Assembly: GCA_021734475.1 (NCBI GenBank)
Contig: JAIPIU010000001.1
Coordinates: 1 to 64,000 of the forward strand
Reading direction: 5' to 3'
DNA: 64,000 nucleotides
Origin: Candidatus Altimarinota bacterium
Lineage (GTDB): Bacteria; Patescibacteriota; Gracilibacteria; Absconditabacterales; Absconditicoccaceae
Both the position numbers and the translations under genes were made by a program. Below the pieces are notes generated by a model. That model was not told where the DNA came from and ran no database searches. It saw only the letters and a program-made list of their open reading frames with translations. Positions within the stretch are counted from its first letter, which is position 1; every line of letters begins with the position of its first letter. Of the stretch, positions 7,069-52,899 are shown one piece after another.

Positions 7069-7917
7069 ATGGAAAATGTAATTATAGTAGATCAGATTTC
7101 TTTGGATCAAAAAATTCAAAAAATGATTAATGATTGAAAGAATAAACTTCATGTGGTTTCAGATTTTGATAAAACCATGACCAAAGCATTTGTAGGTTGA
7201 AAATATAGGTCATCTCTCCTTGCAGTCCTTCGTGATGAAAAATATCTCACGCCTGATTACTCAGCCAAAGCACAAGCGCTTTTTGATCATTATCATCCAA
7301 TGGAAATAGATCCTAATATTTCTATACAAGAAAAAAAACTGTTGATGATGGAGTGGTGGACTAAACATTTTGAATTACTTTTAAATTCATGATTAAACAA
7401 AAAAGATGTTCAAAAAGCTGTTCAGTCTACTAGTATTGAATTTAGGGATTATCTTACAAATATATTAGATATGCTTGATATACATCAAATACCTCTTATT
7501 ATACTTTCTGCATCATGACTATGATATGATGGTATACATCGATATTTAAAAAGCATAAAAAAACTTTATGAAAATACATATATATTGTCCAATACATTTC
7601 AGCGAGATCGAGATGGTAATGCTGTGGATATCCATCAGCCAATTATACATTCTTTCAATAAAGAAGAATCTCTTATAGAAAACTCACCATTTTATGGTAA
7701 AATCAAAAATAGAAATAATATTATATTGCTCTGAGATTCTCCATGAGATTCTTATATGGCACATGATTCTGATAATAAAACTATAATTAAAATCTGATTT
7801 TTAAATGATAATATCGATCAGAACTTAGAATTATTCAAAAAACACTTTGATATATTGATAACAGGGGATTGATCTATGAAATATGTTTATGATTTACTTA
7901 GAAATATTATAAAATAA
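7069..7917 (+). CDS. UMPH-1 / cN-III-type pyrimidine 5'-nucleotidase
   Basis: This 282-residue protein of the HAD superfamily resembles the eukaryotic cytosolic 5'-nucleotidase III family (UMPH-1), which dephosphorylates UMP, CMP or 7-methyl-GMP. The HAD nucleophile motif is DFDKTMT near residue 38, followed by a typical cap segment (YSAKAQALFDHYHPMEID). Motif II is ILSASG, and the late acidic motif is LLGDSPGDS, with glycines encoded by TGA. Length matches the family (about 290). It starts 22 bases after the tRNA, suggesting co-transcription. The family is mainly known from eukaryotes, so its presence in a bacterium points to old lateral transfer or a patchy bacterial branch. Confidence 0.85.
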
Positions 7918-7923
7918 TCTAAC

Positions 7924-7951
7924 TTGACATTTATATTAAAATAATTATAAA
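7924..7951 (+). promoter_or_regulatory. Sigma-70-type promoter for the 7976 gene
   Basis: TTGACA at 7924 and TATAAA at 7946 are separated by 16 bases and lie just upstream of the ATG at 7976. The same TTGACA plus TATAAA pattern recurs ahead of other TGA-free genes and RNA genes of this window. Confidence 0.6.
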
Positions 7952-7975
7952 ATAAAAAACAAAAACTCAAAAAAA

Positions 7976-44353: not shown

Positions 44354-45868
<1,515 letters not shown>

Positions 45869-46025: not shown

Positions 46026-46090
46026 AACGTTAGTTTAATATAATAAAAAAAAGTCGGATTTCACTACAAAATTTATTCTTTATTTTTTTT

Positions 46091-46134
46091 GTCATTGCGA
46101 GGAATTTTATTTTGTTGATGACAAAGCAATCTTT
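46091..46134. repeat. Half copy of the GTCATTGCGAGG ... GCAATCTT repeat
   Basis: GTCATTGCGAGGAAT and AAAGCAATCTT match the two parts of the element at 47595-47660 and of the sequence embedded in alaS at 59787-59820. Confidence 0.7.
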
Positions 46135-46190
46135 TAGTTTACTAGTCATTACCTATTATTTTACCTATATAAAAAATCTTTTAAAAAGAC

Positions 46191-46218
46191 TTGACATTTG
46201 ATATCAAATAATTATAAA
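46191..46218 (+). promoter_or_regulatory. Promoter of the ~1 kb structured RNA
   Basis: TTGACA at 46191 and TATAAA at 46213 are 16 bases apart. The preceding AAAAGACTTG word is shared with the promoters of the two small RNAs downstream. Confidence 0.7.
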
Positions 46219-46224
46219 ATATAT

Positions 46225-47258
46225 CGCCATCAAGAGATGACCTTCAGCCACCACGATCCCCAGTGAGCCTGACAGTAATGGGAAAAAATCTTATATCTTT
46301 GGTAAACCGGCATTAAAAACATGATGCACATGAAACGAGCACCGCCTACACAGACAAAAAAATCGCACAACTGAAAAAAATTCCCGGCCGCCCAATTCTA
46401 GTTCATCAAACCGCGCAATATTTAGAAATTAATTCTGCGGTATTGGCTAGCGATACGGGCAATAAATCAAAAAAAATCGGTGGGACATCCGTACACAAAA
46501 AAACTAAAAACGGCCATGAAGAACCGAAAAAAAAGCCGCCCTTCAAAAGGTTACGGCTAGCAGGATGAAAAACCTGTAAAAAAAGAAAAATATAAACTAC
46601 CAAAAATTCCGGATTATGAAAAACCCGAAAACATCCGGTAAGCCAGCCTTCTTTGTTGGTTTCACCTAGCAGGATAGAACTTTAGTAAAATACTTTCTAA
46701 ATAATATCCTGAAAAAAAATCAAAAATATCCTCCGGTCATGATCGCCATCCGCAACCATAAGCATAAAAAACCATAGCGGAAATGGCACCCGGCAAGCAC
46801 GAGCATCAGTAATTAGGTTCCCGAACTCGAAACGAGCTGAAAAATAGACTGATCAGCTCAGTAAATAATAGGGAACATCGCAGCATCCGTGCAATATATT
46901 CCGGAGGAAAATCCCGGCCCGCCCAACGCAGTGGTGGCCCGGATCAGGGACAAAGCAGTCCCAAAAAAAGAAGGCCCTAGGCAAGTCTTCGCTCACAAGC
47001 AACAAAAGAACATTCGATTCTTTTGTGTGGGTATTAGTCCTATAAAAAGGAAGAACTAAGGGGACTTCCAAGTCAGAGAGACAATCGAGCTCAATGGCTT
47101 ACCGGTAATTCAATCCGGCCTCCAGTCAGGTAGCGAATCTTGCAATAAGAGTGCACATTATTAAGTAAGATTCACCTGGCGAATAAACCGGAGCGTTTTT
47201 GCTCCTCGAAAGCCCAAATTGGGTGCCCCGCGACGAATAAGTCTGCGGGGTTTTTTTT
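46225..47258 (+). ncRNA. Large (~1 kb) GC-rich structured RNA of unknown family
   Basis: The region has a promoter, a strong terminator (CCCCGC/GCGGGG, 47226-47250, then eight T) and no long reading frame on either strand under TGA = Gly. It is much richer in GC than its surroundings, with GC-rich stems separated by A-rich loops, as seen in structured RNAs of AT-rich genomes. Visible stems include GAGCTG/CAGCTC (46834-46859), ACAAAAGAA/TTCTTTTGT (about 47001-47025), CAGGT-GAATCTT with AAGATTC-ACCTG (about 47126-47178), GAGC/GCTC (about 47190-47204) and CCCAAATTGGG. The words GGCTAGCAGGAT and CCTAGCAGGATA recur at ~46555 and ~46666. I could not match it to rRNA, RNase P, tmRNA, SRP, or group I/II introns. 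Confidence 0.7.
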
Positions 47259-47300
47259 ATTTTTCAAAAGACTTGATTTTTATTTTTAAAATAATATATA

Positions 47301-47404
47301 AATGATAGCAAGCTAATTGAACGTAATGTATGGATGCTTGCAAACGATGTAATTATTAACTAATTTAAAAACTGAGTCCCCAGTTTATCGGGGACTCTTT
47401 TTTC
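47301..47404 (+). ncRNA. Small RNA 1 of a homologous tandem pair
   Basis: The promoter is TTGATT (47273)/TATATA (47295). The RNA has a first hairpin with arms GCAAGC and GCTTGC and a terminal terminator GAGTCCCC/GGGGACTC followed by six T. No reading frame is evident. The unit starts immediately after the terminator of the large RNA. Confidence 0.7.
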
Positions 47405-47440
47405 GAAAAGACTTGTTTTTTATCTAAAAAGTAATAATAA

Positions 47441-47537
47441 GATGTTGCAAGCTAAGTTATTGATTAGTGATCCGCTTGCTCGTTGAATAACCGTTATTAA
47501 TTAATCTAGGAGTCTCAGTTTATCGGGACTCCTTTTT
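47441..47537 (+). ncRNA. Small RNA 2 of a homologous tandem pair
   Basis: The promoter is TTGTTT (47413)/TAATAA (47435). It shares with RNA 1 the hairpin GCAAGC/GCTTGC, the segment TTATTAA-TTAAT and the loop word CAGTTTATCGGG inside the terminator (GGAGTC/GACTCC, then seven T). The two units are diverged duplicates, which implies retained function. Confidence 0.7.
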
Positions 47538-47594
47538 TTATTTTCAAAAAAGCATTTGCAGAATAGTTTTGAAATATTATAAACTCAAACGACT

Positions 47595-47660
47595 GTCATC
47601 GCGAGCAAGGCGTGGCGATCTTAATTAAGATTGCTTCGTTATTTCATTCCTCGCAATGAC
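47595..47660. repeat. GTCATCGCGAGC ... CCTCGCAATGAC dispersed repeat
   Basis: Outer arms GTCATCGCGAG and CTCGCAATGAC, inner arms GATCTTAATTAAGATTG. A related half copy is at 46091 and an in-frame copy is inside alaS. Confidence 0.8.
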
Positions 47661-47708
47661 GAGTATTGTTAATTATGAATTATTAATTTTTAATTTTTAA
47701 TTTAGTAA

Positions 47709-49529
47709 ATGTGTTGAATATTCGCATATAAATGATCCAAAACAGATGCACAAAAAATACTCTTACATTGACTACAAAGATTAGAATATCGTGGTTATGA
47801 TTCAGCATGATTGTTTGTTTGAAATAATGATTGAACAAATCAGCTTATCAGATCAGTAGGTAAAGTATCTTCTCTTGTAGAAAAAACAAATAAAGAAATC
47901 AAAAAATCTGATTTTACTTTTTGAATTGCTCATACTCGTCGAGCAACACATGGATGAATTACAGAAAATAATTCACATCCACATCATAATATGAATAAGG
48001 ATTTCTACTTGGTTCATAATGGAATCATAGAAAATTATCATAAACTCAAACAAGATTTGATTGTTAAATGATATAAATTTTATTGAGAGACAGATAGTGA
48101 AGTGGTGGCTAATTTATTACAAGAATACGATACTGGAAATTTTTTGACAACAGTAGAAAAAATACTTTCTTTGATTAGATGAGCTTATGCATTAGTTATT
48201 GTTTCTTCCAAATATCCATGAGAGATGATAGCTGTGAGACTGTGAAGTCCTTTAGTTTTTGCATATAGTCAATCTTGAGATTTTTATTTTTCTTCTGATC
48301 AACAGGCATTAGCTTGATACGCTAATAAACTTATTTATTTGGACGATTGAGATTTGGTTTATATAAAAAGTAATGATTATGAAATCAAATCATGATGAAT
48401 ACAGATATCTAGAGAGATAGAAAATATGGATATAGAATCACTTGAAGTATCCAAGTGAGATTTTAAACACTTTATGATCAAAGAAGTACGAGAACAGCCA
48501 AATATTATTAGAAGAATATTCAAATGAAGAGTAGATTTTTTAAATTATTCAATGAATGCTGAAGCATTTCATGGTATGCAAAATGAAGATTTCAAAAAAA
48601 TAGTTTTTGTGGGATGTTGAACTTCATATAATTCATGATTACTATGAGCTTATCGAATCCAAAATTTAGTATGAATATCTGCAGATTGTGAAATAGCTAG
48701 TGAGTATGAATACAAAAATATCCATGTTGATGATCAGACTTTATTTGTTTTTATTTCTCAGTCATGAGAGACAGCTGATAGTATAGAAGTTTTGAAATTA
48801 TTAAAAAACAGAGGAGCTCATACATTCTGAATTGTTAATGTTGTTTGATCAACTATTTCACGTCTTACTGATTATTGATTATTTACTAGAGCATGAGCTG
48901 AAATTTGAGTAGCATCTACCAAGGCTTTTACCGCACAGATTACTTCGATATTACTTCTTGCATTATTCCTTTGAAAAAAAAGATGACTAAGCAAAGCTAA
49001 ATATGATAAAATTATGACAGAGCTTAGTAAGGTACCAATCATGATAGAAGATATATTGGAGCAGAGTAGTAATATACGCCAAATAGCAGAAATATTTTCA
49101 AAACACAAAGATTTCTTTTTTCTAGGTAGACATTATCAGGTTCCAATAGCTCGTGAATCATCACTTAAACTCAAGGAAATTTCATATCTTCATTCAGAGT
49201 TTTATCCTAGTGGAGAACTTAAACATTGACCATTAGCATTGATAGACAAAAATATTCCATCAATATTATTTGCTCCCGATGATTTATTATTTGAAAAAAA
49301 TGTTTCCTCTATCCAAGAAATCAAAGCAAGAGATTGAATAGTTCTAACCATATCAGACAAAGAAATACAAAACTCTGACTATAATATCAAAATCAACCAA
49401 ACTGTAGATGAAATTTATCCATTTCTAACAGCTGTTGTATGACAATTATTAGCATATCATATAGCAGATATTTTGTGAAAAGATATAGATAAACCTAGAA
49501 ATTTAGCAAAAAGTGTTACTGTGAAATAG
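47709..49529 (+). CDS. glmS: Glucosamine-6-phosphate synthase (glutamine amidotransferase)
   Basis: The 606-residue enzyme makes glucosamine-6-phosphate from fructose-6-phosphate and glutamine, the first step towards UDP-GlcNAc. It starts MCGIF with catalytic Cys2 and a TGA-coded Gly3. It shows [38 protein letters not shown] and GETDSEVV in the amidotransferase half. The SIS half shows [62 protein letters not shown] and the C-terminal [12 protein letters not shown]. Most Gly codons are TGA. The length is normal. Confidence 0.96.
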
Positions 49530-51278: not shown

Positions 51279-52742
51279 TTAATTAATTATTCAGTTTCAC
51301 AAACATTCATCTTTATTATAAGCAACTATTATTTGTCACGGTGCAATAGCCCACTGTTTTTCTTTAAAATTCACGGTCATCAAGTCTGACTTTATAGACT
51401 TTGGACTTTGGACTTTCGACTTAAGCGTAGCTTCTTTCGGCTCTTGTCTATATCTTATCTTTGCCTGTATGTCCAATGGTAATTTATATTCTTCTCCAAT
51501 TCGATGCCAATTACTTACATTAATTATTTTTTGATTTAATAATTCAGATCATCTAGGTCAAACATATATAATATTTTTTTTAACATCTATTTTGCTTACA
51601 TATAAATCTGGTAATAAATTTAGTCCACGTCTTTGTCCTATTGTATAAAACCAAGCACCATCATGTTCTCATATTTTTTTTCAATCCATATTTATTATAT
51701 CTCATTTTTTGTGTGGTAATTTTTGTTCAAGAAATTTTTTAATTGGAATATTTCAAACAAAACATAAACCCTGACTATCTTTACGTTCAGCATTTGGTAA
51801 TCATATTTCTTTTGCTATTTTTCTTACTTCTTTTTTTCATAAATCTCATATTGGAAAAATAGATTTACTCAATTGAAATTGATTTAATCAGCTCAAAAAA
51901 TAGCTTTGATCTTTATTGTAATCTACTCATCTATACAGTCTATAAATATTAGTCTCCCTTATTAAGGGAGATATAGAGGGTTCTTTATTTTTAATAATTT
52001 TACAAACTTCATCAAAATTTTCGAAAATTTCTGTATTAGTAAATCTAATCACTTCAAATCAATATGATTCTAATTTTTTTGTTCTATCTTTATCATATTG
52101 TATTTCTTCATCAGACCGGTGAGTATCTCAATCAATCTCTATTATTAGTTTTAGTTTATTACAAAAAAAATCTACAATATACTCATCAATTGGTTTTTGT
52201 TTTAAAAACTTATATTCAGCATCTTTCAAAAATTCATACCATAATTTTTTTTCTGCTTTTGTTTGATTATTTCTAAGTTTTCTAGCTTTTTCTTTTAAAG
52301 AAAGATTATAATAAATATATTTTCAACCCCCTTCGTCCCCCTTACAAATGGGGATATTAGCTTTAAAAATGCGCGCATAATGTCCAGTAGCAATACCATC
52401 AAATCACATTTCTAATGCTTTATTCAAAAACACATCAAATTTTATTAAATTATTGCAAAACACATCAGGATTTGGAGTAATTCATTTTTTATATCCATCA
52501 TATATATAGTTAATTATTTTTTCATTATATTCTTTTATCAAATCAAAAGAAATGATTTCTATTCACAAAAATTTAGCAACTCTGATTGCTTCCTGAGCAT
52601 CTTGATATGTACTACAGTTTCATGAATCTGAGATATAATTTTTCATAAATCATGCTACTACATCATATCATTTTTGTTTTAACAAATAAGCTGCTACAGC
52701 AGAATCTACTCATCAACTTAGTCATACTAAAACTCTCTTCAT
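51279..52742 (-). CDS. mnmA: tRNA-uridine 2-sulfurtransferase MnmA with in-frame DUF559 insertion
   Basis: MnmA puts the 2-thio group on wobble U34 of Lys, Glu and Gln tRNAs. The PP-loop is [17 protein letters not shown] with both loop glycines as TGA. The two catalytic Cys are in [12 protein letters not shown] and [10 protein letters not shown]. Other family motifs are [28 protein letters not shown] and GQRRGLN. The protein is 487 residues against the usual ~360. About 140 extra residues (126-266) sit between ATGHYARI and RGVDYNKDQ and form a DUF559 nuclease domain. A second short insertion ([14 protein letters not shown], 51381-51437) lies near the C-terminus. Both are in frame, so the gene remains open. 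Confidence 0.92.
51945..52370 (-). mobile_element. DUF559 (Vsr-like endonuclease) element inserted in frame in mnmA
   Basis: Within mnmA, residues about 126-266 read as a DUF559 domain: [51 protein letters not shown] and [20 protein letters not shown]. These are the Vsr-like PD-(D/E)xK residues of DUF559. The edges carry short repeat-like DNA: CCCCCTTCGTCCCCCTTAC on one side and CTCCCTTATTAAGGGAG on the other. Such flanks are typical around stand-alone DUF559 genes, so I infer that a mobile element landed in mnmA and kept the frame. Confidence 0.8.
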
Positions 52743-52899
52743 CCAAAAGAAATTTATAAAATAATTCGAGAAAAATCTCAAAAAGATTTTTCCGATGTTT
52801 TTATCTATAGGAATTGTTTTGAAATTCCTATATGGTAAAAAACTAATCACTTATAAAAATTATTTTTATTTAAACAAGTCTGATTTTATATTAGATGTT

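Follow-up and report, generated by a model that had tools for sequence, protein, structure and literature searches.

A GC-rich noncoding gene between proS and glmS

The spacer between proS (minus strand, 44354-45868) and glmS (plus strand, 47709-49529) in this Gracilibacteria genome is 1.8 kb long and contains no conserved gene, which raises the question of what it encodes. We studied it within a window of 64,000 nucleotides (the whole stretch of DNA that was analysed) on contig C3 of the 1.17 Mb host genome (1,171,154 bases). A genetic code in which TGA means glycine is a trait of Gracilibacteria/Absconditabacteria, and this host uses it as well, proS and glmS being open under NCBI table 25 only. 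Most of the spacer is taken up by a segment of ~1,030 nt on the plus strand, running from a predicted start at 46225 to the T-run of a terminator at 47258. Its GC content is 43%, against a genome mean of 27%, and A is in excess over T (A-T skew +0.28). Among noncoding islands it is the only one of such length and bias in the genome (1,169,701 of 1,171,154 bases scanned).

Upstream of the segment lies a sigma-70 type promoter, TTGACA-18-TAAAAT (46191-46220, plus strand), which matches the consensus at 11 of 12 positions and is conserved in the orthologue described below; an alternative reading with TATAAA at a spacing of 17 fits too. The segment ends in an intrinsic terminator (47225-47258, plus strand) with the stem 47225-47234/47241-47251 followed by T8. 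The terminator is only 49% identical between the two species, yet a strong hairpin is kept at the same place in the orthologue. No long open reading frame was found on the plus strand of 46225-47258, while the minus strand, read with table 25, has incidental open stretches of which the longest is ~130 codons. Relative to the orthologue, 14 of 21 indels are not multiples of three, and hence the gene is not coding. The preliminary description had proposed a GC-rich region that lacks a reading frame and is bounded by a promoter and a strong terminator, and each of these points holds. The segment thus has what is generally looked for in a noncoding RNA gene: promoter and terminator signals of its own, and no conserved reading frame.

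Conservation in a second species of the genus

A BLAST search of 99 relatives located a syntenic orthologue of 708 nt in UBA6263 (G001; DJVF01000023.1), between the same two genes and with the same promoter. Within the genus, G001 is the second species in which the locus is assembled. In a third species (G002) the contig breaks off 280 nt upstream of proS, and the assembly lacks glmS, so that this genome is uninformative on presence or absence. The two RNAs share the conserved blocks 46605-46668, 46727-46911, and 47048-47181, which alternate with blocks that were gained or lost. Approximately 300 nt (46283-46604) are present here only and correspond to a 299-nt alignment gap in G001; ~78 nt inside 46945-47047 are likewise present here only, and an 81-nt block is present in G001 only. 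Identity in the core was 0.87-0.88, compared with 0.62-0.65 at the fourfold-degenerate sites of proS and glmS. Core identity above that of fourfold sites indicates that the core is under purifying selection, and, judged by sequence comparison, this selection is strong in both core domains. In a genome of 1.2 Mb, an RNA of 1 kb held under tighter constraint than synonymous sites must bring its host some benefit.

Several further elements were seen around the locus. Directly downstream of the RNA are two tandem small-RNA-like units (47259-47406 and 47407-47545) that share 72% identity. Each has a terminator of its own, a promoter-like AAAAGACTTGATTT...TATAA, and the element GCAAGC/GCTTGC; save for one terminator hairpin the units are absent from the sister species. 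Just before the orthologue, on its upstream side, G001 carries an insert of ~440 nt (L013, reverse complement 7526-7967), which has a separate terminator and a small open frame beginning MEKQYPVWIMVLLAMGVM. A short palindromic element, TCATTGCGAGGAA...GCAATCT, flanks the RNA at 46090-46165 and 47598-47665 and looks like a dispersed repeat. Farther downstream, an open reading frame at 51279-52850 (minus strand, code 25) reads by eye as a tRNA 2-thiouridylase-like protein with an apparent inserted segment resembling very-short-patch-repair proteins (DUF559-type).

Predicted fold and pair-preserving substitutions

Folding z-scores, taken against dinucleotide shuffles, were -6.1 for the whole RNA without its terminator, -8.2 for the core (46621-47181), and -3.4 for the orthologue, whereas the 5' part (46225-46620) showed no excess over shuffles, with a z-score of -0.7. 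The description of the locus as ~1 kb of structured RNA therefore fits the 3' two thirds only. When each RNA was folded separately and the structures were mapped by alignment, 54 pairs were in common, including the helix 46635-46645/47095-47105.

The predicted architecture is depicted here from the outside inwards, all features lying on the plus strand. The 5' and 3' ends would pair in a proposed closing helix, P1, formed by CGCCA (46225-46229) and TGGCG (47177-47181), and would thereby close the molecule. Both strands are invariant, and in G001 the predicted P1 has p 0.85; in the window RNA a local hairpin competes with it. The extra 5' domain that is absent from the orthologue (46283-46604) is closed by TTTGGTA/TACCAAA (46298-46304/46598-46604, p 0.68) and is not significantly stable when folded alone. 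The long-range core helix has CCGGAT (46609-46614) and CCGGTAAGCCA (46635-46645) as 5' strands, spanning 46609-46645, and TGGCTTACCGG and ATCCGG as 3' strands, spanning 47095-47118. CCGGAT pairs with 47113-47118 (p 0.92) and CCGGTAAGCCA with 47095-47105 (p 0.97), the latter helix being predicted independently in G001. Together, 46609-46645/47095-47118 would gather a multi-branched core, with variable peripheral domains plugged in outside it. CTAGCAGGAT occurs twice in the RNA (46558-46577 and 46667-46711), heading the hairpins GCAGG/CCTGT and CAGGATA/TATCCTG.

Core domain A (46727-46911; 87% identity; covariance model R2) has the closing stem TCCTCCGG/CCGGAGGA and the helices 46745-46753/46777-46787, 46797-46801/46888-46892, 46817-46822/46871-46876, and 46834-46840/46853-46859, most of which are predicted independently in both species. 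Core domain B, the 3' domain (47048-47181; 88% identity; covariance model R1), includes a hairpin at 47135-47173 with the stem GAATCTTGC/GTAAGATTC and the upper stem AATAA/TTATT; its 9-nt loop folds in G001 too. This loop, GAGTGCACA (47149-47157), does not vary between the two species and includes GTGCAC (47151-47156), a hexamer that is complementary to itself. The helix CAGGT-GAATCTT/AAGATTC-ACCTG had been put forward as long-range in the preliminary description. It is real, but it is a local 52-nt hairpin (47127-47178), of which the orthologue keeps the inner arm GAATCTT/AAGATTC and, in part only, the outer arm CAGGT/ACCTG. The helix that is truly long-range is 46635-46645/47095-47105.

A check of base pairing in homologues had been called for, and it was carried out with the structure predicted from this genome alone, comprising 77 pairs in conserved blocks. 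Between the two species 14 pairs had changed; ten of these were still standard pairs, with six altered on both sides, and four were broken. Random placement of the substitutions breaks 15-17 pairs compared with the four observed (P<1/5000). In 14 control segments of proS and glmS coding sequence, 7-29 pairs were broken, with P mostly >0.1 and one segment at P=0.007. The long-range helix had pair-keeping changes at 46609, 46613, 46614, and 46643, and one break at 46611. Domain B was not significant when tested alone, because it is too conserved. Pair-preserving change is thus well above chance in what is a two-sequence test on the window RNA and one homologue, rather than a full covariation analysis. 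The predicted core helices are kept through compensatory changes, and the two sequences provide good evidence for the fold.

Proposed function and alternatives

In our judgement the odds are somewhat in favour of 46225-47258 being an independent gene for a large structured noncoding RNA, most likely a trans-acting scaffold that dimerises through its palindromic loop. We infer the function, expression and oligomerisation of the RNA. Its role would be structural and exerted in trans: it would form the scaffold of a particle, which may or may not include protein, and two copies would kiss through the conserved loop GAGTGCACA to give a homodimer, possibly a higher oligomer. Symmetric palindromic kissing loops join the oligomers of OLE, GOLLD, and ROOL (PMC12286853), and the GTGCAC loop has the form to be expected of such a loop. 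It lends dimerisation weak support, since by our own estimate a 6-nt palindrome arises by chance in ~6% of 9-nt loops. A possible alternative partner for the loop hexamer is a conserved GTGCA within 46888-46898 of the same molecule.

The RNA could also work as a monomer inside a ribonucleoprotein, acting in trans by binding or sequestering proteins, as scaffold or sponge, and forgoing RNA-RNA self-assembly. The multi-hairpin architecture, the A-rich linkers, and the gain and loss of peripheral domains would suit such a role, and OLE, the best-studied RNA of this size class, functions as a ribonucleoprotein (PMC10898510, PMC9723947). However, no repeated protein-binding motif was evident in the RNA, short-motif repeats being barely above shuffles, and no conserved partner gene is linked to it besides the housekeeping neighbours proS and glmS. 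We regard the monomeric ribonucleoprotein as a serious but rather unlikely alternative.

The position of the RNA, on the same strand as glmS and directly upstream of it in both species, invites the reading that it is a giant 5' leader of that gene, riboswitch-like or an attenuator, by analogy with the glmS ribozyme. Between the two, however, lie the terminator at 47225-47258 and two more (47374-47397 and 47508-47533), and a promoter-like TTGCAG...TATAAA directly upstream of glmS (~47557-47586) is conserved in G001. The glmS ribozyme model (RF00234) had no match in the window. Since three terminators stand between the RNA and glmS, as does the conserved promoter-like element, a leader function is improbable.

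Still less probable is a known RNA (RNase P, tmRNA, a group I or II intron, OLE, ROOL, GOLLD, or HEARO) that has diverged so strongly as to fall below the sensitivity of Rfam. Bacteria of the candidate phyla have very diverged RNase P RNAs, for which lowered thresholds are needed (PMC8172020), and the host genome was therefore checked for this RNA. A full-length RNase P RNA gene (RF00010) is located elsewhere, at C3:280915-281255 with 95.9 bits, and a tmRNA gene (RF00023) at C8:10879-11340, which speaks against both identities. In the window, ARAGORN reported only tRNA-Pro. Rfam searches at gathering scores and at permissive settings (E<=10) gave nothing plausible for the RNA gene or its orthologue, and with permissive filters no Rfam family was found in the window at E<0.05. 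The covariance models of OLE (RF01071), ROOL, GOLLD, and HEARO matched neither in the window nor in the orthologue. The orthologue did show a weak match to a plastid group II intron (25.3 bits versus a cut-off of 43), carried mainly by unpaired letters; this match is not repeated in the window sequence, lies mid-molecule, and is without exons, all of which speaks against a group II intron. The earlier assignment to no known family is thereby borne out, as is the proposed size class, with ~1.0 kb here and 0.7 kb in the sister species. The RNA cannot be filed with OLE, ROOL, or GOLLD because their sequence-model tests fail, and the papers searched describe no such RNA from the candidate phyla radiation, Gracilibacteria included. 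It is a genuine large structured RNA and represents a new family of a known kind, the large bacterial noncoding RNAs.

That the segment is GC-rich foreign or decaying DNA without function is hardly credible: its detection in one genus only, the large indels, and the unstable 5' part would fit, but the core is conserved above fourfold sites, the promoter is conserved, the terminator hairpin survives sequence turnover, and substitutions preserve pairs.

Distribution of homologues

Covariance models of both core domains detected no homologue in 353 genomes of the class beyond the window genome and G001, and laxer filters applied to 39 genomes and to proS loci added none. A two-loop pattern searched in 257 Gb of genome contigs was found in UBA6263 only. 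Among viral contigs, motif scans of IMG/VR yielded no homologue that could be confirmed, and BLAST of phage (50,697 records) and plasmid collections gave no match. Weak hits at L018, L034, L038, L182, and L183 were at chance level, and the first three were unconvincing when aligned or read. Among other GC-rich islands up- or downstream of proS and glmS in relatives, those inspected were set aside, as they proved to be coding, a repeat of a short motif, or unremarkable.

A separate observation was made in a genome from another genus of the same family (G020, genus g19), where a ~580 nt A-rich noncoding stretch (L058:3158-3740) is bound by a promoter and a terminator. It has a GC content of 0.41 and a fold z-score of -3.3. 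Seen from proS, it lies on the same side as the window RNA, which makes it a candidate positional analogue. No sequence relation to the window RNA was detected by k-mer test, BLAST, or covariance model, and the stretch has no full-length homologue in the 98 relatives searched.

As far as the sequences indicate, the RNA is probably restricted to the genus and of the large 'ornate' type; it is probably a scaffold and may self-associate via its palindromic loop. More tentatively, and as a possibility we would not call likely, it may be the first representative of a new class of giant ornate RNAs in Gracilibacteria that read TGA as glycine, self-assembling through a symmetric GTGCAC kissing loop and either confined to one genus or evolving too fast for its homologues to be detected. 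The narrow distribution points to further RNAs of this sort, as yet unseen, in under-sampled lineages.

Comparison with known large RNAs

To our knowledge, very few bacterial RNAs outside rRNA are longer than 500 nt and have complex conserved folds, and their functions are mostly open. Like the window RNA, the glmS ribozyme/riboswitch (RF00234) precedes glmS and shares its strand. The window RNA differs in having no Rfam match to it and in being set apart from glmS by a separate promoter-like element and three terminators. The long abundant noncoding RNA of Lactobacillus salivarius (PMC5643018) is also a large bacterial RNA, reported from one species; it was found by RNA-seq, and its comparison with the window RNA was through the Rfam search alone.

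OLE (RF01071) is similar in being large (~600 nt), stand-alone, and structured, with a conserved core, and it dimerises via a symmetric palindromic kissing loop (PMC12286853), for which the window RNA has a candidate palindromic loop. OLE is further characterised by OLE-associated proteins (OapA and others), linked or encoded, and by a membrane ribonucleoprotein. In contrast to OLE, the window RNA belongs to another phylum, has neither an Rfam match nor sequence in common with it, and adjoins proS and glmS instead of OLE-associated genes. ROOL and GOLLD are associated with phages or prophages, whereas the window RNA has chromosomal housekeeping neighbours and no match in the 50,697 phage records; it also lacks an Rfam match to them, and its oligomerisation is putative. 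As homo-oligomeric ornate RNAs, ROOL, GOLLD, and OLE are marked by assembly into defined oligomers in the absence of protein, a trait to which only the conserved palindromic loop points in the window RNA. With ROOL and GOLLD, the window RNA shares its size range, the variable domains inserted round a conserved core, and, as a candidate, a palindromic loop.
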